Below are positions 18,249 to 39,362 of a DNA stretch of 43,271 nt, in pieces (position 1 is the first letter of the stretch; each line of letters opens with the position of its first letter). The position numbers and the translations under genes were made by a program. The DNA comes from Orenia marismortui DSM 5156. Lineage in GTDB: Bacteria > Bacillota > Halanaerobiia > Halobacteroidales > Halobacteroidaceae. The notes below the pieces were generated by a model. It saw only the letters and a program-made list of their open reading frames with translations. It had not been told where the DNA came from and made no database searches. The DNA is taken from positions 9,824-53,094 of the forward strand of contig NZ_KB900624.1 in NCBI RefSeq assembly GCF_000379025.1, in the 5' to 3' direction.

Positions 18249-18272
18249 CTCTATCTCCTTTTTATTTTTAAT

Positions 18273-21890: not shown

Positions 21891-22212
21891 TTAATATCAC
21901 TGGAAGAACACTTTCCATAAAGTTCTCCTTTGTAATACCTGTCTTTTCAGCTTGGCCAGTCTTATCAAAAGGTATAATTGCAACCTTATCAAGTCCATAG
22001 CTGATTACTGGAGCTATCATATCGATCCCATAGGTAATCCTGCGACCTGCTAAAATTAACTCTTCACCTTTATATAAGTTCAAACTATAAAAACTCTCTT
22101 CATTATTCCAAAAGATTTCAAAGATAAACTCCTCATTTAAAATATCAATAGCAAATCTATCTGGCTCCTTATCAATATCACTTTTATCAATCGGTAAATA
22201 ACTAAGCTCCAT
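21883..22212 (-). CDS. Baseplate plug/hub-associated protein, DUF6983-like
   Basis: 109 residues from the ATG at 22212 (GGAGGAG upstream). The start MELSYLPIDKSD and NLYKGEELILAGRRITYGID resemble small phage proteins between tape measure and hub. It overlaps both neighbours by a few bases. Confidence 0.6.
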   Translation of the reverse strand: MELSYLPIDKSDIDKEPDRFAIDILNEEFIFEIFWNNEESFYSLNLYKGEELILAGRRITYGIDMIAPVISYGLDKVAIIPFDKTGQAEKTGITKENFMESVLPVILSD

Positions 22213-22720
22213 TGCTTTTCTCCTCCAAATATCTCTCTCCATAAGCTATCCACTCTGCTGTCCTACCAGTTGCAGGAACTTCAGTAGTCTTAGGCTCTTT
22301 TTTAGGAGTGTTATCATTATTCTTTTGGACTTGCTGGCCAGTTGCAGGCTCTTTACCTAATTTAGTAACTTGTGATCTCTCTTTAACCATCTGAATCTGT
22401 TGTAGTTGCATAGAGCCACTAAATCCATCTTTAATAGCAGCAGTACGAGGGATAGATAAGGATTTAATAGCCATATTAGCATAAGAGAAATCAATTCCCT
22501 CATAAGTGAATACTTTACTAGCATCTCTTAACTTAATTAACTGTCTAGCTATCTCTTGGCCATTCTTTTCTACTAAAAACTTTATATTTATAGCTACTGG
22601 ATCCTGAAAGATATGATCAGTAATATCTGCTCCATCTTCAATAGGTTTAGATGGGACTGAATTACTAAACTGAGGATCCTCTTCTTTAACGAATATTGAA
22701 ACTCCACCTATTGACTGCAT
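22202..22720 (-). CDS. Dit-like/baseplate-associated protein
   Basis: 172 residues. DGADITDHIFQDPVAINIKF and LIKLRDASKVFTYEGID fit the N-terminal domain of Dit-like tail proteins found just after the tape measure. The last 60 residues are low-complexity Lys/Thr/Pro. Probably the base of the tube. Confidence 0.6.
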   Translation of the reverse strand: MQSIGGVSIFVKEEDPQFSNSVPSKPIEDGADITDHIFQDPVAINIKFLVEKNGQEIARQLIKLRDASKVFTYEGIDFSYANMAIKSLSIPRTAAIKDGFSGSMQLQQIQMVKERSQVTKLGKEPATGQQVQKNNDNTPKKEPKTTEVPATGRTAEWIAYGERYLEEKSNGA

Positions 22721-22721
22721 A

Positions 22722-25322: not shown

Positions 25323-25568
25323 CTATTCACCACTCCCTACTTGCTCTTTTACAGATTCATTGATTACTTCTAAAGCCTTATAAGCTTCTATCAATCTATC
25401 CATATCCCAACTATCTATATCTTCTAAGCTTTCTCCTGAATTATAAAAGACAGTATAAATCATTTTCTTTCTGGGATTTTTCTTGATCTCTTTCTTATAA
25501 CTGTTGTAATCAATCTCTGCAAAGACACCTATTCCAGACTTAACATGTTTAGGAGTTAAGAAAGGATT
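25323..25568 (-). CDS. Tail assembly chaperone extension (probable +1 frameshift product)
   Basis: Open frame without a usable start, coding like a gene: PKHVKSGIGVFAEIDYNS, KKEIKKNPRKK, YNSGESLEDIDSWDMDR. It overlaps the 3' end of the small chaperone in the +1 frame and ends just before the tape measure, exactly where a gpGT-type extension lies. A Phe UUU codon followed by C (25563-25560) would let tRNA-Phe slip onto UUC, joining ...IESF to LTPKHV.... Alternative: an independent 46-aa gene from the internal ATG, which lacks a good binding site. Confidence 0.6.
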   Translation of the reverse strand, partial: NPFLTPKHVKSGIGVFAEIDYNSYKKEIKKNPRKKMIYTVFYNSGESLEDIDSWDMDRLIEAYKALEVINESVKEQVGSGE

Positions 25569-25830
25569 CTATCTTCTCAACCAACTGATTAAGAGTTTTC
25601 ATTCCATAATTTCCACCTGGGCCAAAATCATCAATAGAATTAATATCAGCAGGCTCTACAACTACATTCTTAAGAACTTCATCAGTGTATTTTGCCTGTT
25701 GCATTACTCCAAATCTGTTCTTACATCTATCAGTTAATTCTAAATACCATCTAGCTCCTGGATGTTGGAACTTAAAATCTACACCATCAATAGTCTCTGT
25801 AGCTTGTTTAACTGAACTTTCTTTTGCCAT
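25549..25830 (-). CDS. Tail assembly chaperone (gpG-like)
   Basis: 93 residues from the ATG at 25830 (AGAGGAGATGATT upstream). FKFQHPGARWYLELTDRC and FGPGGNYGMKTLNQLVEKIE are similar to the small acidic proteins that follow tube genes in DUF3277/DUF3383 phages. The position between tube and tape measure is diagnostic for the chaperone that coats the tape measure during tail assembly. Probably also made as a longer frameshift product. Confidence 0.75.
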   Translation of the reverse strand: MAKESSVKQATETIDGVDFKFQHPGARWYLELTDRCKNRFGVMQQAKYTDEVLKNVVVEPADINSIDDFGPGGNYGMKTLNQLVEKIESFLNS

Positions 25831-25853
25831 TTCAATCATCTCCTCTAATTTAA

Positions 25854-25890
25854 AATAAAAAAGCACCCTTTCGGATGCTTAATCTCTAAA
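25854..25890 (-). terminator. Intergenic stem-loop A, copy 1
   Basis: Leftward AAGCATCCGAAAGGGTGCTT followed by TTTTTATTTT, beginning at the tube-protein stop. It differs at one position from 35187-35223. It may partly terminate after the highly expressed tube gene or protect its mRNA. Confidence 0.7.
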
Positions 25891-26296
25891 AGTCTGTAAT
25901 AAATGCATGATCATAGTCTGCAACTAACAAATTCCACTCAACTTCTCCTACTTCTGCTCCTCTTTCAAAGTCAGGTAAGGTCTTAACCACACATCTAGAC
26001 CCTGCAATACCAATATCACCATCAATATTAGCATCTACACAAGCAAACTGGAACTCATCATCTGAGTTATAAAGTCTTTTCAACATTGCATTACCAGGAC
26101 TATTATGCTTCAAAATAAAAGTAACCTCTCCAGTATCATCTGCTGACTTACTAAAAGTAACTTCTCCTTTAGCAGAAACATGAGTATTTCTTTTATCTGA
26201 GTTTCTGCTTCCTTTAATAAAAGTATCTTCACCAAAACCAGTAAGAACAAATCCTGCCACTGTTACACTTACCTTATTAGGATCATACTGCTTCAT
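25886..26296 (-). CDS. Tail tube protein (DUF3277-like)
   Basis: 136 residues. YDPNKVSVTVAGFVLTGFGE, TFIKGSRNSDKRNTHVSAKG and GDIGIAGSRCVVKTLPDFER match the tube family that pairs with DUF3383 sheaths. It forms the rigid inner tube. Between sheath and chaperone genes. Confidence 0.85.
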   Translation of the reverse strand: MKQYDPNKVSVTVAGFVLTGFGEDTFIKGSRNSDKRNTHVSAKGEVTFSKSADDTGEVTFILKHNSPGNAMLKRLYNSDDEFQFACVDANIDGDIGIAGSRCVVKTLPDFERGAEVGEVEWNLLVADYDHAFITDF

Positions 26297-26309
26297 CTTA
26301 TCACCTCAC

Positions 26310-27338
26310 TTATATTTCTAAATAGAAATCAACCTGTACCTCGTGAATCGCACCCCCGAATGTAATAGAAGGCTTAATTCCACTAAGTATTCTATTAGCT
26401 CTATCATTAGCTGGAATATCAACTCTACGAGGGAACTTAACTGACATAATATAGTTCCCGCTATCATCTTGAGCTACCATCTTGTTACTAGCAGCCTGCT
26501 TATTTACAGATTTAACAACTGATACTATTTGAGTTATACCATTGTCTCCAAAACCAACTTTATCATTATCTTTCAATAACTTAAAAATTCCTTCTCTATA
26601 TCTAGCACTAATCCAGTCTTTTGCTACTTGAGTATCAATAAAATCACCATTACTTAACTTGCCTTCACTGATATAATCCTCACCCATGTTATTCACATAA
26701 GTATTACAATCAGCATTAAGGATAATATCTGCTTCCTGGTATGTTGTAGATGCTACTGTATTGATAGTCTTAAACTTAACAGTATAGCTTCCAGGAACTA
26801 ATGCAGCAATTCTACCAACAGTTCCAGCTGCTAAGAACTGATCCTCAGTATCAATGCCTCCATCATGAGCAAATATGGCCATTCTTTGATTACTCATTCC
26901 AGCCATAAAGGTCTCAATCTCTGTTGGTGTCTTAGCAATATCTAATTGAGCAGCTCCTACCTTTGCTTTAGATGCTATCCAATCAGAAAAGGCAGTTATA
27001 TCTGCATCTACCCTACTGGCCAACACCCCCCAATACCAATCATTCCTACGAGTAATCAAATCGTCTAAAGCTTCTCCAATAGTAGTAAATGTAGCATCAA
27101 CAGCACTAATATCAAAGCCATAGATAGCTACTTTCTCTGGCTTTGGCTCTTGACTAAGAATAATATTAGCTTGATCATAAGCTAAATCACCAGCTACAAC
27201 CCCTGAAATCTGACTAGTATCTGTAACCTCTTGATATACAAGATTGTTATTTGGATCAAATATCAAAGGTAACCCAAAACCATTTTGAGCTATCGCTCCT
27301 GTCTTATCATAAATATTGACTTTAACTTCTTGTGGCAT
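26310..27338 (-). CDS. Contractile tail sheath protein (DUF3383-like)
   Basis: 342 residues. KVNIYDKTGAIAQNGFGLPL at the start, YGFDISA and an LVPGSYTVKFKTINTVASTT segment, and the closing SGIKPSITFGGAIHEVQVDF are typical of DUF3383 sheath proteins, short relatives of the T4 gp18 fold. Proves a myovirus-type tail. Strong ribosome-binding site; preceded by stem-loop B. Confidence 0.88.
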   Translation of the reverse strand: MPQEVKVNIYDKTGAIAQNGFGLPLIFDPNNNLVYQEVTDTSQISGVVAGDLAYDQANIILSQEPKPEKVAIYGFDISAVDATFTTIGEALDDLITRRNDWYWGVLASRVDADITAFSDWIASKAKVGAAQLDIAKTPTEIETFMAGMSNQRMAIFAHDGGIDTEDQFLAAGTVGRIAALVPGSYTVKFKTINTVASTTYQEADIILNADCNTYVNNMGEDYISEGKLSNGDFIDTQVAKDWISARYREGIFKLLKDNDKVGFGDNGITQIVSVVKSVNKQAASNKMVAQDDSGNYIMSVKFPRRVDIPANDRANRILSGIKPSITFGGAIHEVQVDFYLEI

Positions 27339-27357
27339 CTTATCACCTCTCTAAATT

Positions 27358-27383
27358 AAAATAACACCTATCTCTAGGTGTCT
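27358..27383 (-). terminator. Intergenic stem-loop B, copy 1
   Basis: Leftward ACACCTA, GAGA loop, TAGGTGT, then TATTTTAATTT. The neck-gene stop TAG lies within the stem. A second copy is at 38527-38553. Confidence 0.7.
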
Positions 27384-27922
27384 ATTTCTATATTGGAATC
27401 TGGCCCAATAATCTGAATCTTTTCTATTGTCTTCCCTCTCACTTGAATCACATCTTCAAACTCCAGGATAACATCAAATCCCTTTCTTATTTCATAATCA
27501 TTCTCTAAAAAGGTAGTCTTATCAATAGTATCTCCTACATTGACTACTACCCCTTTATAGTCCTCAAAAAAATAACCAGCTAACTTAGGGATCATAAAAA
27601 ACTCTCTAACCTTATTCAAATAAAGATCTATAGGATTCTTATTACTCCCATAGCCAGTAATAGATAAGGTTACACGAGGATTATAATAATAGTTATACAT
27701 TAAATCCTTATCAAACTCTGCTTCAATGCTTTCTACTACCTCCTTAACCTCAGTAAAATTAATATTTCCAGTATTATAAGGTCTAGAAAAGTTATATATA
27801 ACCCTCTGATCTTTAAGCTTCTTTGGTGGTATCTTCTGATTGGCCAATAATATTTGAGGACATCCAGAATAATCTTTTAGTGGTTGCCAGATGTCATTAG
27901 CTATAGTCTCTAAATCAATCAT
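27374..27922 (-). CDS. Neck/tail terminator protein (LIC_12616/gp12-like)
   Basis: 182 residues. DQRVIYNFSRPYNTGNINF, YYYNPRVTLSITGYG and DLYLNKVREFF are characteristic of the neck terminator family of myophages with DUF3383 sheaths. It caps the tail tube at the head end. Overlaps the preceding gene by 8 bp. Confidence 0.75.
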   Translation of the reverse strand: MIDLETIANDIWQPLKDYSGCPQILLANQKIPPKKLKDQRVIYNFSRPYNTGNINFTEVKEVVESIEAEFDKDLMYNYYYNPRVTLSITGYGSNKNPIDLYLNKVREFFMIPKLAGYFFEDYKGVVVNVGDTIDKTTFLENDYEIRKGFDVILEFEDVIQVRGKTIEKIQIIGPDSNIEIDT

Positions 27923-28295
27923 CTATAACCACCCTCTTAGCTACAAACTCATAGAAATCTGAATTAATAGTTTGGTCCTGGAACTCTTCAAGAGAATAAT
28001 GATCCCCTCTGAATATAATTTCTTCTTCTTTTTCAATACTAATCTCTTCTTCTTGGCCAGTCTCTTTATTTACAGCTGTAAAATCCTCTATAATATAGAG
28101 CTTGATATCCTTAGTTGTGTAGGATCCTCCATCATACTGCTTAATATCTTCAGTAGTTAGATGAAATACTGCAGCTTCTAATAAATAATGAGTAGTTTGG
28201 CCATATACCCATCTTGGCCCATCTTGATAACCTTCTGATTCTTTGATTAGCCCTATTGGGACACTATTCTCTTTAATCAAATCACTAAATTCCAT
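27915..28295 (-). CDS. Head-tail connector protein (stopper-like), unknown
   Basis: 126 residues. IKESEGYQDGPRWVYGQTTH and IIFRGDHYSLEEFQDQ: beta-rich, with the size and order of head-completion stoppers (between the gpG-like and neck terminator genes). Family not recognised with certainty. Confidence 0.55.
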   Translation of the reverse strand: MEFSDLIKENSVPIGLIKESEGYQDGPRWVYGQTTHYLLEAAVFHLTTEDIKQYDGGSYTTKDIKLYIIEDFTAVNKETGQEEEISIEKEEEIIFRGDHYSLEEFQDQTINSDFYEFVAKRVVIDD

Positions 28296-28297
28296 AA

Positions 28298-28819
28298 TTA
28301 CACCACCCTATAGCTGATAGCTCCTTTTAGCCTTCCTGTATTCTCCAAAGGACTATCTCCAACACCAGCTGAGGTAGTCTTTTGCTGTACAGTAAAAGGA
28401 TGATTAGGAGGATTCTCAATAGATACAATCTTCTCCTGGATAAGACTCACTAAATACTCCCCATATAGAGCAAAGAAGGTATCAGCACTCTGCCTTCCTT
28501 CTACTACTTTGGCTATACCTGCTTCTGCTTTCTTAATCATATCCTTATACTCTTCATCAAAGGTAGATCTAATAAAGCTTCTTTCAGGTATCTTAACCTT
28601 TTTCGTACTCTTTTTAAGGTGTAAACCTTGACTATGAAGATAAGCTCTCATCTTAGGAGTAACATCTATCTCAACTCCAAACTCATTCACACTTGCTATC
28701 ATAAGTAATTTAGAATCTTGATCTCCTAATACTCCTATTTCTATCTTCTTATTCTGCAACTTATAAAGCTCTTCTATAATTTGAGGGACTTGGTTATCAT
28801 CTTCTACTCTAACTGTCAT
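28298..28819 (-). CDS. Tail completion/virion morphogenesis protein (HK97 gp10 or Mu gpG-like)
   Basis: 173 residues. KIEIGVLGDQDSKLLMIASV...NEFGVEI, then PERSFIRSTFDE and ENTGRLKGAISYRV form the pattern of these proteins (IPxRPFLR-like motif and a closing TGxLxxSI/SYRV). Joins tail to head. Confidence 0.8.
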   Translation of the reverse strand: MTVRVEDDNQVPQIIEELYKLQNKKIEIGVLGDQDSKLLMIASVNEFGVEIDVTPKMRAYLHSQGLHLKKSTKKVKIPERSFIRSTFDEEYKDMIKKAEAGIAKVVEGRQSADTFFALYGEYLVSLIQEKIVSIENPPNHPFTVQQKTTSAGVGDSPLENTGRLKGAISYRVV

Positions 28820-29148
28820 GAAAACACCACCATAGCTGGGCCATTACATTTCCTCAATATCCTTAGGACCTCTTTACCATACTCAGTTAATTTCAGTCCC
28901 TCTTGGCCAGTTCTATTAGGATACATATTTCTCATTGGTCCTAACATTTTATCAGTTGGCTTAGGCTTATCTAAAGTACCAAGATGAGCAGCCATATATC
29001 TCTCTAGCTTTTCTTGGTACTTTTCATCATATCTAAAGTCCTCCAGCTCCAAGACTGCATCATCTATATACATTTCAATAGTTGAATCTTCCAAACTAGA
29101 TAAATTAGAAGCAATACCTCTTACTTTCGCTACAGTAGTAAGGGCCAA
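28816..29148 (-). CDS. Head-tail adaptor, DUF4054-like
   Basis: 110 residues, TTG start (TTG GCC A..., ribosome-binding site GGGGATG). VAKVRGIASNLSSLEDSTIE and MYIDDAVLELEDFRYDEKYQ fit the DUF4054/gp6-like helical adaptor that sits under the portal. Confidence 0.7.
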   Translation of the reverse strand: MALTTVAKVRGIASNLSSLEDSTIEMYIDDAVLELEDFRYDEKYQEKLERYMAAHLGTLDKPKPTDKMLGPMRNMYPNRTGQEGLKLTEYGKEVLRILRKCNGPAMVVFS

Positions 29149-29150
29149 CT

Positions 29151-29489
29151 TTATTCATCCCCTTCTCCTTCTTCATTCAAATACTCTATCTGCTTATCAA
29201 TAGCTTCCTTAACACCTTTTCTATCTGCCTGCTCTTTCCACTCCAATAACTGCTTCTCATCAAAAGTAGATTCTATAACCTCAACAGCTTTAGAAATAGG
29301 CTTAATTTCATTGATATCAGATAGATCTCCTTCTTCAACTTCAACAGTACCCATATCTAACCACCCTTTTACTACTGGATGACTTTTAACTTTGGCCCAT
29401 TGCTCTTCTTTAACTACATTAGCACCAATATTTAAAGACACATCACCAACATGCTTAATTACATTACTCTTATTGAATATTCTCATCAT
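29151..29489 (-). CDS. Small virion/neck protein, unknown
   Basis: 112 residues; the ATG overlaps the stop of the capsid gene (TAATG). MMRIFNKSNVIKHVGDVSLN, an ANVVKEEQWAKVKSHPVVKG motif and an acidic tail. Similar short proteins occur after capsid genes in related phages; the exact role is unclear. Confidence 0.55.
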   Translation of the reverse strand: MMRIFNKSNVIKHVGDVSLNIGANVVKEEQWAKVKSHPVVKGWLDMGTVEVEEGDLSDINEIKPISKAVEVIESTFDEKQLLEWKEQADRKGVKEAIDKQIEYLNEEGEGDE

Positions 29490-30409
29490 TAAATACCATC
29501 CCCTCTCACTATACCAAGTGGGAATCTAACAACAGCCCCTCCAGTACGCTCCTCAAAGTTAATTTGCTCTGCTAGATTATCCTTTTGGATAGGATCATGT
29601 CTATATAGATCCATAGGTAAAGACATTTGAACTACATCTTCTGAGCTATCAAAAACAATAAAGCTATCTTCATCAGCATCTCCTGCTTTTTCTAACTCGG
29701 CAATAGGCTCAATTCTGCTAAACCAATTCTTAGCTTCCAATACTTCACGAATAGTCTTATCATTAGAAGTTCCTGGCTTATATTCCCTATCTAAATCCTC
29801 ATAGTGTGAAGGAGGTAATCCTAAAGTATCTGCCTGTAATCCAGGCTTAATATTTACTTTCTTTCTTCCCTGTCTAATATCTTCAATGATTTCTGGCCCT
29901 GTCTTATCAGCCCACTCAGTACTAGATCCTGCATCATTAGTATCTACTGCAAAAGTCTGAATACCAGTAAAGTTAATTAATCCCTCAGCATTATAATCAG
30001 AATCACCAACAAAGAAGAAGTCATTTTCCTTTTCTGCTGCAGCTCTTCTAGCAGCAACAGCATAAGTAGCATCAATAGAAACTCCATTAGCTCTAGCAGC
30101 TCTTAAATCATCATAAGGAATTACAAAACCATCAACAATACCAAATACTCTTTGAGTATGCTCTTCAATATCAGCACTAACTAAAGGTACATCATCTGCA
30201 CCATAAGCGAATATCTTAGCAGCACCTTTCTTAGTAATCTTCTTATAGGAAATCACCTTAACATGAGCTGGATCATCAGTCTTTAATGACACTAATGTCC
30301 TAGCCTTTAACTCATCCTCTTTCGCTTCATACAACTTATTATCAATAGCTTTTAAATCATCATTAGTTAATAAAGAATCTTGTCTTTTTACTCCAGTTAA
30401 TCCTTTCAC
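29489..30409 (-). CDS. Major capsid protein (HK97-fold)
   Basis: 306 residues, GTG start. VKRQDSLLTNDDLKAID, IPYDDLRAARANGVSIDATY, AVAARRAAAEKENDFFF and FVGDSDYNAEGLINFTGIQT are typical of DUF2184/DUF6260-like or encapsulin-like capsids. The order scaffold, decoration, capsid supports it. Confidence 0.85.
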   Translation of the reverse strand: MKGLTGVKRQDSLLTNDDLKAIDNKLYEAKEDELKARTLVSLKTDDPAHVKVISYKKITKKGAAKIFAYGADDVPLVSADIEEHTQRVFGIVDGFVIPYDDLRAARANGVSIDATYAVAARRAAAEKENDFFFVGDSDYNAEGLINFTGIQTFAVDTNDAGSSTEWADKTGPEIIEDIRQGRKKVNIKPGLQADTLGLPPSHYEDLDREYKPGTSNDKTIREVLEAKNWFSRIEPIAELEKAGDADEDSFIVFDSSEDVVQMSLPMDLYRHDPIQKDNLAEQINFEERTGGAVVRFPLGIVRGDGI

Positions 30410-30426
30410 CTACATCATCTCCTCTC

Positions 30427-30903
30427 TTATAATTGAACTACCTTAGTAGCAGTTGGCATATCAATCTCAACCTTAACGACTTCTCCAGGTTGGCCAGCAG
30501 TCTTAAACTCTGCATTAGTCAACTCTACTCCATAACTTCCACTAGTACCAGTAGTTAATGGAGCTTTATCAAATAGACTATCATTACGAATTGCTACTTG
30601 ATCTCCAGCTGTAACTGCTGATGCATTATCGCTTAACTTAACCCAGATAACGCCTTTTCTTAATACAGTAGTAGGGACACCATCTGGATAATGGCCATTC
30701 TCTAAATCTCCCTCAATTGAAAACATAGCAATACCTTTAAACTTATCATTACCAGTAGCACCATCCCAAGCAGCTACTTGCTTTTCTGGATTAGTTCCTG
30801 CCTTAGCTCCAGCACCAAAAGGAATAGTTCCCTCTGAAGCTTTAGAATCTGCACTCATTCTTCTTCCTTCTGCTAATTCTCCAGGATTAAGAGTACTTCT
30901 CAT
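30427..30903 (-). CDS. Capsid decoration/cement protein
   Basis: 158 residues. EGTIPFGAGAKAGTNPEKQV, FKGIAMFSIEG, VLRKGVIWVKLSDNASAVTA, GDQVAIRN and GQPGEVVKVEI form the beta-rich pattern of gp24/DUF2190-like structural cement proteins. Directly precedes the capsid gene. Confidence 0.8.
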   Translation of the reverse strand: MRSTLNPGELAEGRRMSADSKASEGTIPFGAGAKAGTNPEKQVAAWDGATGNDKFKGIAMFSIEGDLENGHYPDGVPTTVLRKGVIWVKLSDNASAVTAGDQVAIRNDSLFDKAPLTTGTSGSYGVELTNAEFKTAGQPGEVVKVEIDMPTATKVVQL

Positions 30904-30926
30904 CTTATATCACTCCCTAATTTAAT

Positions 30927-31439
30927 TTATTTTTTCAAGTTAAGTCTCTTATTCTTTTTCTTCTGAATACTAGAATCATCACCATCTTGTTTCTTCTTCT
31001 GATATCTTAAATTATTATCTCCTGTAGATCCTTCACTGGCCATCTCAATCATAGCATCAAATCTAGCATCTATATAATCATCTGAGCGACCTTCAGGATC
31101 AAAGCTATCATTTACAGCCTTAATACAATCAATTTTAATATCTTTAGTTTCTTTGTCAGTAAAGTCATACTCAGAATCTAAGAATAACTTAGCATCTTCA
31201 AGAAGGGCCAACCTTTCATCAATCTTCTTTTGAAGAGTCTCGCTATCAATCTGATTCCCTTCTAGTTCTGCCTTATCTTCTTTAAGTTGCTTAATGGTAT
31301 CATTTTGAGCATCTACCTTACCTTCTAACTGGCCAACCTCTTTAGTTAAGTCTTTATTGTTTGACTCTAGACTGTCTAACCTAGCCTTTACAGCTTCATC
31401 TACTTCAAATTCCTTATTATCTAATTTAATTACAGCCAT
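30927..31439 (-). CDS. Nested scaffold protein (internal start)
   Basis: The in-frame ATG at 31439 (MAVIKLDNKEFEVDEAVKAR) has AAAGGAAGTGG upstream and begins precisely where the protease domain ends. It would give 170 residues: scaffold coiled coil (about 20-80) and a Lys-rich capsid-binding tail, analogous to lambda Nu3 inside gene C. Independent expression is inferred. Confidence 0.6.
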   Translation of the reverse strand: MAVIKLDNKEFEVDEAVKARLDSLESNNKDLTKEVGQLEGKVDAQNDTIKQLKEDKAELEGNQIDSETLQKKIDERLALLEDAKLFLDSEYDFTDKETKDIKIDCIKAVNDSFDPEGRSDDYIDARFDAMIEMASEGSTGDNNLRYQKKKQDGDDSSIQKKKNKRLNLKK

Positions 31440-32039
31440 CTTTCCACTTCCTTTCTTGTTATTGTCTAAATTATCTTCTCTAACTTGATATGCTGAATCT
31501 TGCCTAACCTCTCCATCCTCACTATCTAACTTAGCAAAACAATCTGATCCACAGCGACCTTTGGGGACCATGGCCAAATGATTAAGCTTAAAATTAGTCT
31601 GCCTTCTATCGTAATGTTGGCCCTCAAATTCTCCTGATTCATCTACTATCTCACAGGTAAAACCTAAACTACACTCTCTTTTATCACCAGTAACAATAGC
31701 AGCTATTAGATTGCCATCAAAAACAGTTGCATTATTGGCCAGTTTATTATCATCTACCTTAGCATTTTGACCTGTAAGTCCTTTGACTAGCTCGGTTGAG
31801 TTCTCTGTATTAACAAACTCAAAAGGATGCTCATTACAAATCGGTAGATTATTCAACTGCTCTAATACTTCATCAGTTAGTAGATCATCTGGATGCTTTA
31901 ATTCATAGACTATCTCTCCAGTAGCATAGTCTCTATAAGGGAATACTCCAGTTTGAGCTGCTAGTAAATCATAAGTTAAGAATCCAGCATCATTCTTCTT
32001 AACATTCTCTACCTCAACTGAATCAAACCTCTCTGCCAA
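30927..32039 (-). CDS. Prohead protease (DUF2213-like) fused to scaffold
   Basis: 370 residues; TTG start behind AAGGAGGTGATT. The N-terminal 170 residues (FLTYDLLAAQTGVFPYRDYA; LNNLPICNEHPFEFVN; FKLNHLAMVPKGRCG) are DUF2213, associated with prohead maturation. The C-terminal 170 residues are a coiled-coil scaffold with a basic end (KKKNKRLNLKK). A second start at 31439 probably yields the scaffold alone. Confidence 0.8.
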   Translation of the reverse strand: MAERFDSVEVENVKKNDAGFLTYDLLAAQTGVFPYRDYATGEIVYELKHPDDLLTDEVLEQLNNLPICNEHPFEFVNTENSTELVKGLTGQNAKVDDNKLANNATVFDGNLIAAIVTGDKRECSLGFTCEIVDESGEFEGQHYDRRQTNFKLNHLAMVPKGRCGSDCFAKLDSEDGEVRQDSAYQVREDNLDNNKKGSGKMAVIKLDNKEFEVDEAVKARLDSLESNNKDLTKEVGQLEGKVDAQNDTIKQLKEDKAELEGNQIDSETLQKKIDERLALLEDAKLFLDSEYDFTDKETKDIKIDCIKAVNDSFDPEGRSDDYIDARFDAMIEMASEGSTGDNNLRYQKKKQDGDDSSIQKKKNKRLNLKK

Positions 32040-32072
32040 TTCTCAATCACCTCCTTACTGAAATAGTTGCAA

Positions 32073-32339
32073 CTATCCTTTTAATAGCAACTTTCCTACT
32101 TCTTGAAGAGTATCAGCATGAGTAAATCCTACAATCTTGATTCCATCTGCAAACTTATGGTTTAAATTATCATCATAAGTTTTTTTATAATACTCCAGTT
32201 TACCATCAAAATTAGTATTTGGATTTACTATTAATTCTGGCAACTCATTCTCTTTAACTTCTACTAAAACACCTATCATCTCAGCATTTTCTTTCTTAGC
32301 AATCTCAAAACAATTAATCAGATTCTCTTTAGATAACAT
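32073..32339 (-). CDS. Small head-module protein, 88 aa
   Basis: NLINCFEIAKKENAEMIGVL, a PELIVNPNTNFDGKLEYYKK centre and IKIVGFTHAD: a compact alpha/beta protein found in head modules of similar phages. Function unknown. Confidence 0.6.
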   Translation of the reverse strand: MLSKENLINCFEIAKKENAEMIGVLVEVKENELPELIVNPNTNFDGKLEYYKKTYDDNLNHKFADGIKIVGFTHADTLQEVGKLLLKG

Positions 32340-32382
32340 AGATTAACACCCCTTTTAAAATAATAAAACACCCTTTCAGGTG

Positions 32383-32520
32383 TTATTTACTAGCCATCTT
32401 TACAATTTTAATTACTAACCAATTTAAGCCTTTTATCAACATTACTAAAGGTTGCACAAACCATCTATAACGCCATTTTAATTTATAGTATGGTGTATTC
32501 CAAATATGCTTAGGTAACAT
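32383..32520 (-). CDS. Small basic membrane-associated protein, 45 aa
   Basis: The ATG at 32520 follows AAGGAGGGG, directly after the head morphogenesis gene. MLPKHIWNTPYYKLKWRYRW is basic and aromatic, then a hydrophobic helix (LVMLIKGLNWLVIKIVKM). A stem-loop (AACACC/GGTGTT) with a U tract overlaps its end. Unknown. Confidence 0.6.
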   Translation of the reverse strand: MLPKHIWNTPYYKLKWRYRWFVQPLVMLIKGLNWLVIKIVKMASK

Positions 32521-32531
32521 CTAACCCCTCC

Positions 32532-33380
32532 TTATGCAGCTTCCCACATCTCTTCTAACTCTTCTCTTACTAATGAAGCAGTACATCTACAATTAATCTC
32601 TTTACCAGGAAAGACTCCAGCACCAGCTCCATCCTCCCAAGTATAAACATGGCCATCAAAGTCATCATGCTTCTTTCTTACTCTAGAATCATTAGTAGCA
32701 ACCCACCTAAACTTTTTAAGTCCTAGATTCTTATGTCTAGCCTTAGTTAAATCTCCCTGTAAACTACCTGCCTGATCTCTAGCAATTAACTTAGCTCTAT
32801 TTTTAGTAACATCATATAACTTCTGAATCTCTTCTGCTATTTCTTCTGTACTATTTCCTGCTCTAATTCCATTTAAGATTATCCTATTTAGATCATCAAA
32901 GTATTTTCTAGGTATCGATTTAATTAATCTAACATTCTCTTTAACTGCTGCCTTAGCTATTTGGGCCAAAGCTGGATCATTCTTTAAGGGATCAAATCCT
33001 AAAACTGCTTTAACTTGATTTCCTACCTGGACAATAGAGTGAGTTCTTACTAAATCAATAAAGTCATTGGCCAGTTTATCTACAACCTGTTCAAATACAT
33101 TATTAATAGCTTCTTCTTCTATTCTTTCTAAAGCTCTATTCACTTCATCTATTTCATCATCTAACCTAACTTTACTAGGATTAGTATCAGGATTATCAGT
33201 CCAATATTTAGGACTGTTAAAAGATCTATCTATATCATCATTTCTTCTTAATACTGGTCTAACTTTTCTTTCAAATACTCCTTCAGCTAAGTTATGCATT
33301 TGATCTATTAAGCCAACCAACTTATCATAATAATCTACTGCTTGAGTAGTAGGAAACTTTACCTTTGGAAGTCTGGCCAT
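32532..33380 (-). CDS. Head morphogenesis protein (Mu gpF / SPP1 gp7-like)
   Basis: 282 residues. The C-terminal domain (RDQAGSLQGDLTKARHKNLG, KFRWVATNDSRVRKKHDDFD, GKEINCRCTASLV) is the Phage_Mu_F minor head domain with its conserved Cys pair. It follows the portal in the normal order and may be co-packaged and ejected with DNA. Confidence 0.88.
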   Translation of the reverse strand: MARLPKVKFPTTQAVDYYDKLVGLIDQMHNLAEGVFERKVRPVLRRNDDIDRSFNSPKYWTDNPDTNPSKVRLDDEIDEVNRALERIEEEAINNVFEQVVDKLANDFIDLVRTHSIVQVGNQVKAVLGFDPLKNDPALAQIAKAAVKENVRLIKSIPRKYFDDLNRIILNGIRAGNSTEEIAEEIQKLYDVTKNRAKLIARDQAGSLQGDLTKARHKNLGLKKFRWVATNDSRVRKKHDDFDGHVYTWEDGAGAGVFPGKEINCRCTASLVREELEEMWEAA

Positions 33381-33384
33381 ACTA

Positions 33385-34764
33385 TCACGACCTTCCTTCT
33401 TGGTATTGCTTTCTTGCTTCTTCTACTGTATCAGCTATAGCATCTAACTCTTCTTCGCTCATATCTAGCTTTTCTAATAATCCTATCTTGCCAAATTCAC
33501 CTTTTCTTACTTCATCTGGAGTTACTACATTACTTTCTATATAGATTTTATTAGTTTCAGCTACCATCTTACGAATCTTGGCATCAGTTTCTTTATCTAG
33601 TTTCCATAATGGATTAAATAACATCTTATATAAACCTGCTGGATCTATACTACCTGTACCAACTCCACTCTTTTCAGCCCAAAAGAGAAGATCTATTAAA
33701 TATTCTATATGAGGTCTTAAAAAGTTCTCCTGGAGACCTGCAATCCTAGCATAATAATTAAGACTGTCAAACTGGCCACCAGTAATAGTACCTTGAGCTT
33801 GACCTAGTAAATGAGACTTAGGCATCCTGGCACTTCCTGCTAAGTACTCCCAAGTAAAATTATAAATCTCTTTTAATGCATTGATATTTCCTGTAGGGGA
33901 TACAAAACTTAAATCATCTTCCTTTCCAATGATGGCCAAACTATTACTATTAAACTCTGCTTCATACCAGGCTCTTCTTTTCGCATAATCTTTTCTATTA
34001 GAAATATCGATATTATCACTCTTTAGGACCTTGAAAGCTAAAGAGTATGCTATCTGGCCAGTTGACCAAGCAACATTATCAAATATAACTAATGGATCAT
34101 AAAGCGACTGAATAAGAGGAATCCCCCACAGTTCATCTTCAACTGTCCTTACTTGGTGATGTAGGATCCTATCCTTATGCACTAACCTAGTATCAGCTGA
34201 ATTATTTTCTCCTTTAAGTTCATAATATTCTATCTCTCCATATTCCTTACTAAAGGGATCTTCATTTACAGCTGCATCTTTTACCTTCATCTTAGAAAAA
34301 GCATGAATATAATCTATATCAATTAATGATTTCTTATTTATCTCTTTACCTATATCCAAGCTCCCTTTCTCTCTTGCTCCAATACTACAGAAACCATCAC
34401 CTCTCAACCTCTCATACTCACACATATCATTAATTTTAGGTTGAGCATCAAGATCATTAAGCTTATCTAGTATCGATTTCTTTAACTTCTTATCTGTATC
34501 TTGAAAATCAATCCACTCTCTAGTCATATCCTCACCTGGAATATCGATTATATTTTGAAAGATACGATTAGTCTTATATAAATTAGTTACCTGTTCATCT
34601 GTAAGCTTAATTCCCTGATTAGGTCTTTGGCTAACTAATGGATCACCTCTTCCATTAACTAATCTAGACTTACCTTTACTACTATTGGGATTGCTAGAGT
34701 GCATAAAGTCCTGTCTAATTTCATCTTTAATTACATTCCCAATACTATATCCTTGTTGGCCCAC
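33385..34764 (-). CDS. Portal protein (DUF1073/Phage_portal_3-like)
   Basis: 459 residues, GTG start. LYKTNRIFQNIIDIPGEDMT (about 63-82), a YERLRGDGFCSIGARE motif, GTITGGQFDSLNYYARIAGL and LENFLRPHIEYLIDLLFW-like segments fit the DUF1073 portal. Forms the dodecameric DNA channel. Ribosome-binding site GGAGGTGATTAAG. Confidence 0.88.
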   Translation of the reverse strand: MGQQGYSIGNVIKDEIRQDFMHSSNPNSSKGKSRLVNGRGDPLVSQRPNQGIKLTDEQVTNLYKTNRIFQNIIDIPGEDMTREWIDFQDTDKKLKKSILDKLNDLDAQPKINDMCEYERLRGDGFCSIGAREKGSLDIGKEINKKSLIDIDYIHAFSKMKVKDAAVNEDPFSKEYGEIEYYELKGENNSADTRLVHKDRILHHQVRTVEDELWGIPLIQSLYDPLVIFDNVAWSTGQIAYSLAFKVLKSDNIDISNRKDYAKRRAWYEAEFNSNSLAIIGKEDDLSFVSPTGNINALKEIYNFTWEYLAGSARMPKSHLLGQAQGTITGGQFDSLNYYARIAGLQENFLRPHIEYLIDLLFWAEKSGVGTGSIDPAGLYKMLFNPLWKLDKETDAKIRKMVAETNKIYIESNVVTPDEVRKGEFGKIGLLEKLDMSEEELDAIADTVEEARKQYQEGRS

Positions 34765-34783
34765 TTAATCACCTCCTCAAGCT

Positions 34784-34987
34784 TTAATCAAAACCTAATA
34801 CATATATAATAAATCTTGTAATTGTAAATAGTAATAAAAACATAAAAAAGGAATCTCTTAGATTAAGTATTAAGTATTCTAATTCAAATAAACTATAAGC
34901 ACCATTTAAATATGGCTCAATAAAATATTTTACAGATAATAATACACTCCAAACCAATATAGCTTTATCCATTCCACTAGCCTTCAT
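34784..34987 (-). CDS. Small two-helix membrane protein
   Basis: 67 residues from the ATG at 34987 (AGGTG upstream, 10-bp overlap with the preceding gene); a GTG at 34996 is an alternative. Two helices (AILVWSVLLSVKYFIE and DSFFMFLLLFTITRFIIYVL). Part of an inserted three-gene block with the recombinase; unknown. Confidence 0.6.
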   Translation of the reverse strand: MKASGMDKAILVWSVLLSVKYFIEPYLNGAYSLFELEYLILNLRDSFFMFLLLFTITRFIIYVLGFD

Positions 34988-35162
34988 TGGATTCACCTAT
35001 TTCTAAACCATCCTCTTTAACCTCTACTTCTATTTCAAAATTATTTATCTGATCTAATAACTCTTTTAATTCACTCGCTTTATCACTAGCTTGATCTAGC
35101 AAGATGCTTAATTGACCTAAATTATTATTAACTTTAAACACTAGCTTCTTTTTAGCTTTCAT
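34977..35162 (-). CDS. Small helical protein, 61 aa
   Basis: MKAKKKLVFKVNNNLGQLSI, then a predicted coiled coil (ASELKELLDQINNFEIEVEV) and an acidic end. Between the recombinase and the small membrane protein. Possible regulator or Xis-like accessory, but no motif supports that. Confidence 0.55.
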   Translation of the reverse strand: MKAKKKLVFKVNNNLGQLSILLDQASDKASELKELLDQINNFEIEVEVKEDGLEIGESNEG

Positions 35163-35186
35163 TTTTGTTAACTCCCTCCTTTCCCA

Positions 35187-35223
35187 AATAAAAAAGCACC
35201 CTCTCGGATGCTTAATCTCTAAA
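35187..35223 (-). terminator. Intergenic stem-loop A, copy 2
   Basis: One base different from 25854-25890 over 37 bp. The recombinase stop TAA lies in the element. Followed leftward by TTTTTTATTTGGG. Confidence 0.7.
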
Positions 35224-35862
35224 GTTCATCATAGCTTCAACTACTTCTACTGGAGCTACATGAGTATAAATTTCTGTAGTGGCTATATCACTATGACCCA
35301 AAGCTTCTTGAACTAACCTCAAATCTTTAGTTCTTCTATAAAGATCTGTCGCAAAAGTATGTCTTAAACTATGAGGAGTTACCTTCTTTTCTTTATAAGT
35401 ATCTTCAAGCTTATTACCATCATCATCTGTGTAATGTCTTTCTACCTCTTCTTGAATACCAGCTTTATCAGCATATTTATAAATCATTCTCCTTACATTC
35501 CTAGAATCTAGCTTATTCCCTGTAAGGCTAGTAAAAACTAAATTATCATCATTGCTACAATTTTTCTTTTCTAATGCTTCTTGTTGCCTTTTCTTCCAAT
35601 GACTAATCATTTTAAGACTTTCCTGCCTAACTCCTGCATATCTATCTTTCTTACCTTTACCTTCAACCACTTTAACAAGATTTCCGTCAATGTGATTCCA
35701 TTTTAAATTGATCATTTCTGATAATCTAAGTCCAGTATCCAATATAAACCTAATTATTGTCTTGTTTCTTTCTCCAGTAGGATACCTGGTATTAAAAACA
35801 CCTAATAAAGCTTTTTGCTCTTCATCATTTAAAATATAAGGTAATTTTCTCCTTCTAGCCAT
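35212..35862 (-). CDS. Tyrosine recombinase (short, arm-binding domain absent)
   Basis: 216 residues, catalytic domain plus a short lead. Active-site set: Arg46 (GLRLSE), Lys about 71 (GKGKKDRY), His164-x-x-Arg167 (HSLRHT), His190 (LGHSD) and Tyr199 (EIYTH). No N-terminal arm-binding domain, and it lies between terminase and portal rather than beside the repressor. In a phage with Rep and ParM it may resolve plasmid multimers, as Cre does in P1, rather than integrate. Own promoter at 35931-35959 with repeats. No TGGCCA here, suggesting a separate origin. Confidence 0.88.
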   Translation of the reverse strand: MARRRKLPYILNDEEQKALLGVFNTRYPTGERNKTIIRFILDTGLRLSEMINLKWNHIDGNLVKVVEGKGKKDRYAGVRQESLKMISHWKKRQQEALEKKNCSNDDNLVFTSLTGNKLDSRNVRRMIYKYADKAGIQEEVERHYTDDDGNKLEDTYKEKKVTPHSLRHTFATDLYRRTKDLRLVQEALGHSDIATTEIYTHVAPVEVVEAMMNFRD

Positions 35863-35887
35863 ATTAACACCCCTCTATACTTGAATG

Positions 35888-35911
35888 ACCCTATTCGATA
35901 TGAAATAGGGT
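35888..35911. repeat. Lox-like inverted repeat upstream of the recombinase
   Basis: ACCCTATT (35888-35895), 8-bp spacer CGATATGA, AATAGGGT (35904-35911): perfect 8-bp arms. The arm-8-arm layout recalls tyrosine-recombinase core sites (usually 11-13 bp arms). It could also act as an operator or a rightward hairpin with a TTTTATT tail. Confidence 0.45.
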
Positions 35912-35930
35912 TTTATTAACTTATATATTT

Positions 35931-35959
35931 AGTATAGCATAATAATATATATAGTTCAA
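35931..35959 (-). promoter_or_regulatory. Recombinase promoter flanked by direct repeats
   Basis: On the minus strand TTGAAC (35959-35954), 17 bp, TATACT (35936-35931). AATAAAACCCTA occurs on both sides (35977-35966 and 35917-35906), just upstream of the -35 and between the promoter and the gene, which suggests a bound regulator or the recombinase itself. Confidence 0.75.
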
Positions 35960-35996
35960 GTAAATTAGGGTTTTATTCACAATTAGAGTATTAACA

Positions 35997-37532
35997 CTAA
36001 TTAAATAAATTTGAAATACTATAGCCTTGACCATTGTTAATCATCTCAGCTAATCCAGTAGTAGCATCTGGACCATCATCATTTTTATTTTTACCTTCTT
36101 TCTGATAACTGTTCATAGCTTCATAATATTTTGGCCATCTTTCTCTCCAATTGTAAGGGAAATAAATATGATTCATTACAAAGGTACTATTAGAAATTAT
36201 TCTAGCTTTTTTATTCTGCGATTGATGAAACCAATCTATATTAACTTTCTTAGTCCTATGTCTTTCCCAAATTAACCTTTTTACATTTCTAGCAAAACCT
36301 CTACCACCATTATTACTCTCTATCTTGGCCAAATTAACTTTATTAGCTACTAAGAAATCAGCTGTATCTGGCTCAGTAACTTCCATTCCTGCTTTAGTGT
36401 ACATAATATCAATAACATAAGCTTCACCAGCATACTCTACAGCTGCTAAAGTACATAAATAATCAGATCCAGTATCAGCTGTATCTGTATAACTTATAAT
36501 TCTATCCATCATTGGCTTACCTTGATTACTTCTAGGTAAATCTGTATAAGTCTTAAATGATTTATATAGTTTACCTTTCTGATCTATTGGCTTTTGGTGA
36601 TAGTTAGCTTGGAATATTTCAGGGACCATATTAGCTCTTAAACTCTTATAACTCTTATTAGATAATAATTCAGGACATAACATATTACCATCTTCATCTT
36701 TAGCTTCTAATTTTAATACAAACCATTCATCTGCTTCAGGGCCATCCAATAACCTACCACAAATATCTTTCTTGGCCCACCTAGTCATATTGACTATATC
36801 GATTGCTCCCTCTTCTTTTCTAGAAAGAAAAGTTCCAGTATACCAAGTCCAGATCTTGTCTAAAGCATTTTCATTAAGAGCAGCTTCTGCATCTTTTACT
36901 GGATCATCAACTATTGAGATATTACAACCTTTACCTGTGATGGATCCTCCAACACCTGCCCCCTTATAATTAAAAAACTGTCCTTCTAAAGCCCATTGGT
37001 GATAAGAAGCGTTTCCCTGTTTAATCTTGCTTTCAGGAAATATATCATTATAAACTATCTCATGAGGATAGGTCTTATCTTCATTAATTCCATCTCTTGT
37101 ATATCTTGAGAAGTCTGTGGCCATATCATCATTATAACTACAGGTAATTATCTTATTGCTTGGCTCATCACCTAAAGCCCATTTACAGAAATTAATTAAG
37201 GTCCTAGACTTACCATGTCTTGGTGGCTCATTCATCATTAACCTAGTATAGATCTTATCTTCTTTTAATCTATCAAAATCAAACATCTTCATAAATCCAT
37301 CTGGCACATGCTCTACACAAAAGTTATAAAAATCTTCTTTAGTCAATCTTCTCTCATATAAAGCCTGCAGTACCCAAGCTAATAATTTTAAGTGCCATCT
37401 ATCCTCTTTATAGAAATCTGGAGATAAAGTCTTACAAAAAGTCCAAAACTCTTCTTTGGATCCTCTTAACTTCCTTTCTCTTTTCAGGGCCAACAGTTTC
37501 TCTTTTTCTTTTCTACTCATCTTCTTCTTCAT
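35997..37532 (-). CDS. terL: Terminase large subunit
   Basis: 511 residues. ATPase motif PPRHGKS (103-109), Walker B ISIVDD (205-210), then an RNase H-like nuclease starting ISYTDTADTGSDYLCTLAAV (about 340-360), with acidic residues further on (DGPDATTGLAEM). Pumps DNA into the prohead and cuts it. The start overlaps the small subunit by 20 bp. Confidence 0.95.
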   Translation of the reverse strand: MKKKMSRKEKEKLLALKRERKLRGSKEEFWTFCKTLSPDFYKEDRWHLKLLAWVLQALYERRLTKEDFYNFCVEHVPDGFMKMFDFDRLKEDKIYTRLMMNEPPRHGKSRTLINFCKWALGDEPSNKIITCSYNDDMATDFSRYTRDGINEDKTYPHEIVYNDIFPESKIKQGNASYHQWALEGQFFNYKGAGVGGSITGKGCNISIVDDPVKDAEAALNENALDKIWTWYTGTFLSRKEEGAIDIVNMTRWAKKDICGRLLDGPEADEWFVLKLEAKDEDGNMLCPELLSNKSYKSLRANMVPEIFQANYHQKPIDQKGKLYKSFKTYTDLPRSNQGKPMMDRIISYTDTADTGSDYLCTLAAVEYAGEAYVIDIMYTKAGMEVTEPDTADFLVANKVNLAKIESNNGGRGFARNVKRLIWERHRTKKVNIDWFHQSQNKKARIISNSTFVMNHIYFPYNWRERWPKYYEAMNSYQKEGKNKNDDGPDATTGLAEMINNGQGYSISNLFN

Positions 37533-37926
37533 ACTTTTTCAACTCTTCTTCTAATTCTTCATCTGATAAATAAGATAAATCCAAAGTATGAGTTAGATTT
37601 CCTTCGTGCTTATGCTCGTGCTGTTGCTTATATTTACCCTTTAGCTCAAAAAATAATTTAATGGCCTGAGTTTCTCCACGCTTTACCTGGTTAATTAATG
37701 AGTTCCAAGCTGTGGATAAATGGCCATCAGTTACTATATCAATTTGAGTATTTAGGTAATCTAAGAAATCACGATCTTTAAGCCATCTATAAGCTGTAGA
37801 TGGTGCAACACCAACCTCATTAATTTTGGCCCTTCTAGTTCTCCTATCTTCTGGATCTAGTAGTAGCTCAGCAAATTTCTGTTGTTTAGCTGTTGGAACC
37901 CAATCTGTTTCGTTATGTTCAGCCAA
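37513..37926 (-). CDS. terS: Terminase small subunit
   Basis: 137 residues, TTG start behind GGAGGTGGTG. An N-terminal helix-turn-helix (KQQKFAELLLDPEDRRTRRA; VGVAPSTAYRWLKDRDFLDY) binds packaging-site DNA; a His-rich segment (HEHKHEGN) and an acidic tail (LEEELKKYEEEDE) follow. Immediately upstream of the large subunit. Confidence 0.85.
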   Translation of the reverse strand: MAEHNETDWVPTAKQQKFAELLLDPEDRRTRRAKINEVGVAPSTAYRWLKDRDFLDYLNTQIDIVTDGHLSTAWNSLINQVKRGETQAIKLFFELKGKYKQQHEHKHEGNLTHTLDLSYLSDEELEEELKKYEEEDE

Positions 37927-38505
37927 TTACACCACCTCCTCACTTAATATATCTGGAACTTCTACTCCTTCAGAAGCCCAATCAATTCCATATTTTTGTA
38001 ATATATCTGAGAAATCTTCTATATCATGAGGAACTATATAGCCATTAGGACCAATATGTTTTAACTCATGATACATTAAGATCTTCTGCTGGTTTACTGA
38101 TAATAAAGAAGTATTATAATCATAAAAAGTAATTATAAACTTATAAGGTATCATAGCTGCATAAGGCCCTGTTACCTTTCTACAATCTGCATAAGTAACT
38201 TTACCTCTGCTTTTCTTCTTGAGAAAACACCTAACAAAACCTATATTCTCTATTCCTATTGCATCTCTAACCTGCCATAGATCTCTTTTCTTCTCTAATA
38301 TCTGCTTTGCTAAATGCTTCATTCTGCCATCTAATTTATAATTAACATTATGGGCCAACCTAAATCCATGTTCATATCTTTGGTATTCGTGCTGCCAGCA
38401 GTACCATTCACCATTAAAATTCATTGATACTTCTTTTTCTCTTCCACATCTGCTATTATTGTTCTTATGGCCAGAACACCTAATAACCTTAGTTTCAGCT
38501 CCCAT
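37927..38505 (-). CDS. Putative phage metallopeptidase
   Basis: 192 residues. A CSGHKNNNSRCG zinc-like start with further Cys/His residues, then a HExxH-type active site (MYHELKHIG, about 152-160) in the putative phage metallopeptidase domain. First gene of the late operon in front of terS. Related proteins occur at this position in several Firmicutes phages; substrate unknown. Confidence 0.7.
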   Translation of the reverse strand: MGAETKVIRCSGHKNNNSRCGREKEVSMNFNGEWYCWQHEYQRYEHGFRLAHNVNYKLDGRMKHLAKQILEKKRDLWQVRDAIGIENIGFVRCFLKKKSRGKVTYADCRKVTGPYAAMIPYKFIITFYDYNTSLLSVNQQKILMYHELKHIGPNGYIVPHDIEDFSDILQKYGIDWASEGVEVPDILSEEVV

Positions 38506-38526: not shown

Positions 38527-38553
38527 TAAAAATAACACCTATCTCTAGGTGTC
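38527..38553 (-). terminator. Intergenic stem-loop B, copy 2
   Basis: The same ACACCTA-GAGA-TAGGTGT stem and TTATTTTTATT tail as at 27358-27383, in the leader between the 23-aa peptide and the metallopeptidase gene. Confidence 0.65.
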
Positions 38554-38647: not shown

Positions 38648-38718
38648 TGATTTCCCTCTTTTCTTATGGTCATAAATGAACAATATTTAATTGACTATTA
38701 TTCCTTCCTACATATAAC

Positions 38719-38749
38719 AAAGACACCCTGTTAAGAGTGCCTTTACCTT
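38719..38749 (-). terminator. Hairpin in the late leader
   Basis: Leftward AAAGGCACTC, TTAACA loop, GGGTGTCTTT (wobble pairs), then GTTAT. It could attenuate late transcription before the structural genes. Confidence 0.5.
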
Positions 38750-38806
38750 ACATAAGAAGGTTGTCTATATAAATAAAATGGCTAACTAAATTAAATTCAA
38801 GTTCAA

Positions 38807-38834
38807 GAGCAGTGCTTCTTGGAGACTCCTGCTC
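38807..38834 (-). other. 5' stem-loop of the late transcript
   Basis: GAGCAG (38834-38829 on the minus strand) pairs with CTGCTC (38812-38807) at the predicted start of the late RNA. It may stabilise the mRNA. Confidence 0.5.
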
Positions 38835-38835
38835 T

Positions 38836-38918
38836 ATTATACAGTATAACATATAAAAGTATTTTAAAAGTATAATGAAAGTATAAAATTAGTATATCAA
38901 AAGTATATAAAAAGTATA
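38836..38918 (-). promoter_or_regulatory. Late promoter with 11-bp phased activator array
   Basis: AGTAT(A/T) starts at 38858, 38869, 38880, 38891, 38902 and 38913: six copies exactly 11 bp apart (TATACTTTNNN leftward). A seventh AGTATA lies 15 bp further at 38843. The -10 TATAAT is at 38841-38836; its -35 position (38864-38859) falls inside the nearest array unit and lacks a consensus. That arrangement points to an activator-dependent promoter. The regulator gene at 38925-39362 lies directly upstream, and all packaging and virion genes lie downstream. Confidence 0.7.
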
Positions 38919-38924
38919 TTTTGA

Positions 38925-39362
38925 CTATGAAACCCTTAAATATGATATTAATTCATCTAAAACCTCTCTTTTTTTAAGCTTAATTGTTGGCTCTGCAAGA
39001 CCTATAGTTACTGAGGTTTGGAAGATGGAATTATCTTGGCCATAGAATAACCTTAATATCTCCTTGTATGTAGTTCCATCTGGTACATTGTTAAGTCTGT
39101 TGAAGAATCTATCTAATCTCTTTTTAGCTTCCTTTAATTTCTCCAGCTGGTCTGCTTCTGGATTAAACAGGCCTGAGCTAGTAAATAGATCACTAACTAC
39201 TCCTTCTTTTCTACCAAGAGTGATTACTATATCTTTACTTCTTGCCTTCCCTCTGCTATCTTCTTCTAATTCTTTGATGATACAATCTAATTCACCTGTA
39301 AAATACCATCTTATTAAAACCCCTGTCATTTTCCTAGCCTTCCTGTCTATTGCTTCCATCAT
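38925..39362 (-). CDS. Late transcription regulator, sigma-region-4/ArpU-like
   Basis: 145 residues. The middle is a charged helix (ADQLEKLKEAKKRLDRFFNR) and the C-terminus a helix-turn-helix like sigma region 4 (YKEILRLFYGQDNSIFQTSV, then GLAEPTIKLKKREVLDELIS). Size, domain order and position just before terminase match ArpU/RinA-type activators of late genes. The 11-bp array that follows is the likely target. Confidence 0.65.
   Translation of the reverse strand: MMEAIDRKARKMTGVLIRWYFTGELDCIIKELEEDSRGKARSKDIVITLGRKEGVVSDLFTSSGLFNPEADQLEKLKEAKKRLDRFFNRLNNVPDGTTYKEILRLFYGQDNSIFQTSVTIGLAEPTIKLKKREVLDELISYLRVS

Follow-up and report, generated by a model that had tools for sequence, protein, structure and literature searches.

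The locus is the early-late junction of a temperate phage, located in a window (the whole stretch of DNA that was analyzed) of 43,271 nucleotides from Orenia marismortui DSM 5156, contig NZ_KB900624.1. On the gene strand, the order is a gene for a 145-amino-acid protein, which is probably the end of the early gene cluster, an array of short repeats, a promoter, a leader of about 330 nt, and the late genes from position 38505. The late operon of about 25 kb comprises genes for a metallopeptidase-like protein, TerS, TerL, a tyrosine recombinase, portal, head, tail sheath, tape measure, baseplate, and fibre, and the sheath gene suggests a contractile tail. The array is thus located between a regulator gene with a sigma-region-4-like domain and the late operon, and we infer that the 145-amino-acid protein regulates the late promoter downstream of it. 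The features are as follows.

38925..39362, minus strand, 145-amino-acid late regulator, Alt/Ltr-like, with sigma-region-4-like C-terminal domain (PHROG, profile matches, AF2 model)
38858..38918, minus strand, array of six 11-bp units, gene-strand unit TATACTTTTnA
38913-38918, 38902-38907, 38891-38896, 38880-38885, 38869-38874, and 38858-38863, minus strand, the six array hexamers
38843..38851, minus strand, probable extended -10, TGTTATACT, read as TG-T-TATACT (pattern TGnTAnnnT, same place in relatives)
38836..38841, minus strand, second -10-like element TATAAT (TAnnnT downstream of the first hexamer is common in relatives)
38806..38835, minus strand, leader stem-loop AGAGCAG...CTGCTCT (CTGCTCTTGA arm), directly after the -10, folds in the leader RNA
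38703..38760, minus strand, long inverted repeat in the leader, inner part like a terminator hairpin, weak T tract
38534..38553, minus strand, terminator-like hairpin with T-rich tail upstream of the first late gene (sequence match only)
12936..38505, minus strand for nearly all genes, late operon (gene order)

Two further genes of the prophage were recorded. The 216-amino-acid tyrosine recombinase (35212-35862) lies inside the late operon in the gap between terminase and portal genes, and its translation is nearly identical to the one encoded in the related viral contig L002 (8093-8743), far closer than the neighboring proteins. In the early region, a Mu Gam-like end-protection protein is encoded at 42061-42585 (PHROG 2205, E 1.6e-44).

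An 11-bp array of six AGTAT(A/T) copies had been proposed from the letters of the DNA, and it was borne out by all measures used. The copies start at 38858, 38869, 38880, 38891, 38902, and 38913, with exact 11-bp spacing, and Tandem Repeats Finder reported 38854-38920 with period 11, 6.1 copies, and a score of 71. The lag-11 self-match at the array (31 of 40) was the maximum of the window for lags 7 to 21, with a runner-up of 27 at lag 19; over 56 bases, it reached 43 compared to 31 at the runner-up place in the whole window. The lag-11 score was matched by none of 300 dinucleotide-conserving shuffles of the array region. The hexamer itself occurs 109 times in the window, with 109 expected by chance; the unusual feature of the array is its phasing and not hexamer frequency. 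Relative to the first base of the promoter hexamer TATACT, the units start at -70, -59, -48, -37, -26, and -15. A further AGTAT(A/T) copy at 38843, off the 11-bp register, is the complement of this TATACT.

The first-pass annotation had taken TATAAT as the -10. This element is present at 38836-38841, but the sequence comparison places the late -10 probably at TGTTATACT, in which TATACT starts seven bases upstream of TATAAT and is preceded by TGT, making it an extended -10. The same TGnTAnnnT stands behind the array in L002 and in the Lactococcus phage TP901-1 (both TGATATACT) and in the related loci L012 (TGATAGAAT), L003 (TGCTATAAT), and L004 (TGATATTAT). A promoter scan found no promoter-like pair of -35 and -10 ending at TATAAT or at TGTTATACT. 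In the scoring table for extended -10 elements, the row of the window is an array unit, which ties with the promoter in score.

A second TAnnnT starting 6 to 8 bp downstream of the start of the first hexamer was observed in 25 of 33 related loci with an extended -10, a rule-based set with the element in the tested interval that superseded a hand-picked one (22/28). Counted by sites in the same loci, which are partly non-independent, it was found at 25/41 compared to 18/295 control sites (Fisher P = 6.6e-16). Another control, other gene ends (0.24), was left unused, as it overlaps late regions via duplicate loci and other frames. The second element may serve as an alternative -10, signal a pause, or help in melting.

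The leader RNA as a whole folds with a z score of -3.73. Its stem-loop AGAGCAG...CTGCTCTTGA is nearly identical in L002 (about 5516-5545) and kept in L012/L024, hence in three prophages, one of which differs in its terminases and shares only about 25% identity in the regulator. An rrn-type boxA was considered in the leader (TGCTCTTGAA) and rejected, the host rrn leader having GGTCTTTGAAAACT, only a loose likeness. In Rfam, neither the leader region of the window nor 12 related loci gave a match, except for a tRNA in TP901-1. The late leader of the latter (L008, 2135-2376) contains a tRNA-Lys and a tRNA-like gene according to ARAGORN, and a stretch of the L002 leader (about 5560-5600) resembles the 3' half of a tRNA.

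The adjacent gene had been described as encoding a region-4-like helix-turn-helix protein. It is a real open reading frame of 145 amino acids, and the domain, weak in the window sequence (sigma70-ECF, E 0.031), was clearer in relatives (Sigma70_r4, E 1.4e-5 and 1.6e-5) and in the predicted fold, an AF2 model with pLDDT 76 whose C-terminal half matches sigma region 4 domains. The similarity to sigma-70-type proteins recovered in these searches is region-4-like and lies in this half. The PHROG search of the window protein gave weak matches to PHROG 2198, "Alt-like transcription activator" (E 0.0012), and PHROG 36 (E 0.00099). Profile comparison was stronger, both with the Alt family (probability 88.8, E 2.4e-6, 105 columns) and with DUF1492-like late regulators (probability 94.1, E 1.2e-7). 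No match was obtained by direct tblastn against phages or by the Pfam search, PF06530 included. By sequence, then, the window protein is a distant member of the Alt/Ltr-type regulators. It is small and basic, with a computed pI of 8.96, and the 6.33 of Alt itself indicates that basicity is not strict.

Homologs of the regulator were identified in L002 (61% identical), in L012, which is identical in DNA to L024 and comes from a different species of the host genus (roughly 25% identical), and in L003 and L004 from the same order (34% and 24% identical). The scans of viral contigs and genomes yielded one close relative, L002; the pattern scan missed L002 even though it bears the pattern, so the scans of these collections are incomplete. 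Genome matches to PHROG 2198 were set aside as weak; many were open reading frames of 240 to 300 amino acids, a length at which host sigma factors would be expected.

Relatives that keep the regulator without the array had been named as the observation that would speak against the proposal. The array was retained in all four relatives with a recognizable homolog and in TP901-1. In the relatives the best period after the regulator was again 11, with the units AAGTAATTATT in L002, ACAATTAACCC in L012, TGGCACTTTGC in L003, and TGTGGTTTTTA in L004. Lag-11 periodicity exceeded that of 300 of 300 shuffles in the window, these four loci, and TP901-1, and in all six the array lies just after or overlaps the 3' end of the regulator gene. 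Measured from the first -10 hexamer, the unit starts of the window and L003 run from -70 to -15, those of L002 from -71 to -27, and those of L012 from -60 to -27, so that the register of array and promoter agrees within 1 bp despite differing units. The unit starts were set by eye; the ACT core shared by the window and L003 gives the same phase. No clear lag 11 was detected in L115 and L120, two Alt homologs that were examined, and the clear 11-bp form was found in only these four relatives and TP901-1. Across the compared sequences, each phage has its own DNA word within a common geometry, a pattern to be expected of operators and their activator.

The promoter of the window belongs to the Alt/Ltr late promoter type, previously known by experiment in TP901-1 and φ13. 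In TP901-1, the gene for Alt (DUF722, PF05263) likewise immediately precedes the late promoter and the terminase genes, the repeats have lag 11, and the extended -10 TGATATACT is followed by a second TA-rich element. Alt shows profile similarity to the window protein over the 105 columns, with about 18% identity. The window differs from TP901-1 in having six well-matched units compared to four imperfect ones of unrelated sequence, and a further difference is the tRNA-like sequences of the TP901-1 leader. Alt binds its four imperfect repeats of about 11 bp each from -76 to -32 of the late start, and the late promoter of the Staphylococcus phage φ13 requires its repeats, its TATA box, and Ltr, being abolished by repeat deletion or loss of Ltr (PMC13123087). 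The repeats for the Ltr of φ13 (Ltr family IV), here grouped with the RinA-type regulators, are 18 bp compared to 11 bp in the window. The clostridial DUF1492-like regulators (L058, L066, L069, L074, and others) share with the window protein the profile similarity and the sigma-4-like domain, and their loci share phased arrays at the 3' end of the gene, an extended -10 with a second element, and a leader terminator; they differ from the window in a 10-bp period, an array over the stop codon, and a conserved structured leader. PhoB-type activators bind head-to-tail tandem 11-bp boxes that replace or overlap the -35 and contact sigma region 4. These direct repeats at the -35 resemble those of the window; the protein family is unrelated.

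In the wider family, defined as loci matched by PHROG 36 and PHROG 248, a lag-10 self-match of at least 19 of 30 was observed at 11 of 42 regulator ends and in 4 of 1,068 control stretches from the same loci; these are best-scoring loci with near duplicates included, and the fraction is no census. Such arrays straddle the regulator stop codon with a 10-bp step, and other lags are at or near background. At this threshold, a strong array was missing from most of the 42 ends. A step of one helical turn per repeat, 10 or 11 bp, is a frequent trait of these regulators, not a universal one. A lag-7 repeat in L096 was judged unrelated. Of 45 related regulator genes, 34 had an intrinsic terminator in the 320 nt that follow them, compared to 7/45 upstream and 16/45 antisense controls. 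The terminator behind the late promoter separates the early transcript from the late genes and must be passed by the late polymerase, as in the lambdoid pR'-tR' arrangement.

The leaders behind clostridial-type late promoters have in common a structured RNA of about 150 nt with 34 predicted pairs, 8 of them changed on both sides, in which AGGUAUAGAAA pairs with UUUUCUAUGCC at the U tract of the terminator. It is possibly a new family of late-leader RNA; it had no Rfam match. It was located at the following positions.

L058:1333-1483, structured leader RNA
L060:1951-2098, structured leader RNA
L066:1310-1470, structured leader RNA
L067 and L068:1317-1467, structured leader RNA
L069:1317-1472, structured leader RNA
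L070:1944-2105, structured leader RNA
L074:1963-2138, structured leader RNA

After the leader terminator, directly before the first late gene, a TTTTTCTATGCCC-like motif recurs in L055, L069, L074, L101, and others, and may belong to a signal for packaging or translation.

The array is very probably the operator of the late promoter, through whose phased repeats the adjacent regulator would activate transcription. The evidence from the present DNA consists of the phased array, its position, the conserved register, the co-occurrence with the regulator, and the re-coding of units between phages; repeat-dependent activation by the adjacent regulator is known from other members and is carried over here by analogy. 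We infer binding in the window, one protein per unit, polymerase contact, and the start site. With a start seven bases past TATACT, the units would begin at about -82, -71, -60, -49, -38, and -27, and the last two would overlap the place of the -35, where a -35 box is missing. The regulators would bind side by side on one helix face, and the promoter-proximal bound protein would contact polymerase, as happens on the tandem 11-bp boxes of PhoB-type activation; because the promoter-nearest units are at the -35 position, it may replace the absent -35 contact. In this way the regulator could recruit or hold host polymerase at the extended -10 for transcription of the late operon. One-face operators with one unit per turn for the adjacent regulator, as suggested in the first-pass annotation, gain support from the arrays kept in relatives and from the Alt and Ltr experiments. 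The repeat length in φ13 speaks against activation from one repeat per turn as a universal design.

Other explanations of the array fare much worse than activation. Binding of another protein, such as a phage repressor, a host nucleoid protein, or a replication initiator, is conceivable given that iterons and repressor operators can also be phased repeats, but it is very unlikely, as the array site always adjoins the late regulator and the extended -10, and known members bind their own regulator at the corresponding site. In another reading, polymerase would be trapped by the units, which would act as -10 decoys and keep it near the late promoter in an off or standby state. TATACT is present in five of the six units, and one has the extended -10 sequence TGATATACT; the resemblance is restricted to the window phage, however, and the relatives retain the phasing with units that are not -10-like, so the trap reading fails and was given hardly any weight. 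The least credible explanation is a functionless tandem duplication or AT-rich low-complexity tract. The array region is very AT-rich and short repeats arise easily, but relatives have independent arrays of different sequence at this very place and register, and such arrays are rare in the rest of the DNA of these loci.

Antitermination is a more serious, if still rather doubtful, alternative or addition to activation: the protein, besides or instead of aiding initiation, would act like the Q antiterminator of phage 21. It would use the direct repeats next to the promoter to load onto polymerase during a pause at the duplicated -10, and polymerase would then resist terminators in the leader and along the late operon. 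Q21, with its sigma-R4-like fold, recognizes direct repeats at its late promoter and depends on a pause element resembling a -10 (PMC6606751). A sigma-like helix-turn-helix is also predicted in the antiterminator GafZ (PMC11150451), and the promoter-bound regulator AlpA reportedly turned out to be an antiterminator and not an activator (PMC7969949). The model of the L024 relative (pLDDT 63) had Q21 as its top match (6p18_Q, Z 9.4, root mean square deviation 3.2, 96 residues aligned), with 6p19, 6p1b, 6p1a, and 6jnx also within the top 11 matches, and the window model matched 6p18_P (Z 6.9) and 6jnx_P (Z 6.5) over residues 3-145, with sigma-4 domains at similar Z. Such a role is also favored by the terminators behind most related late promoters and by the enriched tandem -10 elements. 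The window resembles Q21 (PF06530) in the sigma-R4-like domain, the direct-repeat site at the late promoter, a terminator downstream (38534-38553, by sequence match only), and perhaps the predicted fold along the chain, and differs in that its protein has no sequence similarity to Q21. Profile comparison with the Q21 family alignment indicated no relation (probability 0.5, E 0.13), and the structural match is largely the common sigma-4 domain, with Z values in the gray zone where helical folds can match by chance and with a weak L024 model. The array also lies upstream of the -10 with an 11-bp spacing, its last unit overlapping the -35/spacer, compared to a Q21 site between -35 and -10 with 8 bp. 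In addition, the second -10-like element overlaps the discriminator, closer than the classical pause element, the window's own terminators are weak or 250 to 300 nt away, and a φ13 reporter ending at +50 is already Ltr dependent, which points to initiation. Activation is the main reading; activation and antitermination may both hold, so the likelihoods given to them need not add up to one.

It is tentatively proposed that the Alt/Ltr/DUF1492-type late regulators of Gram-positive phages might be structural counterparts of Q21, which would load onto polymerase from the phased arrays with the aid of the duplicated -10 and carry it through leader terminators. As the part for the RNA exit channel, the candidate would be the flexible Gly/Ser-rich stretch that links the N-terminal helices to the sigma-4-like domain. 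Among the results listed by a literature search that covered subscription journals poorly, and in which absence is unproven, no paper linked Alt/Ltr/RinA regulators with Q-type antitermination.

The present loci are further independent examples of a promoter design that may be common to many temperate phages of Gram-positive bacteria, and they provide a search rule for it: a regulator gene, an array with a 10- or 11-bp step, an extended -10, a second -10-like element, and a leader terminator. Because the unit is rewritten and the geometry kept, the relatives form a natural experiment on the joint change of a sigma-4-like domain and its DNA word. If the Q-like role is true, Gram-positive and lambdoid phages would control their late genes by one common mechanism, and systems treated as plain activators would need a read-through test.
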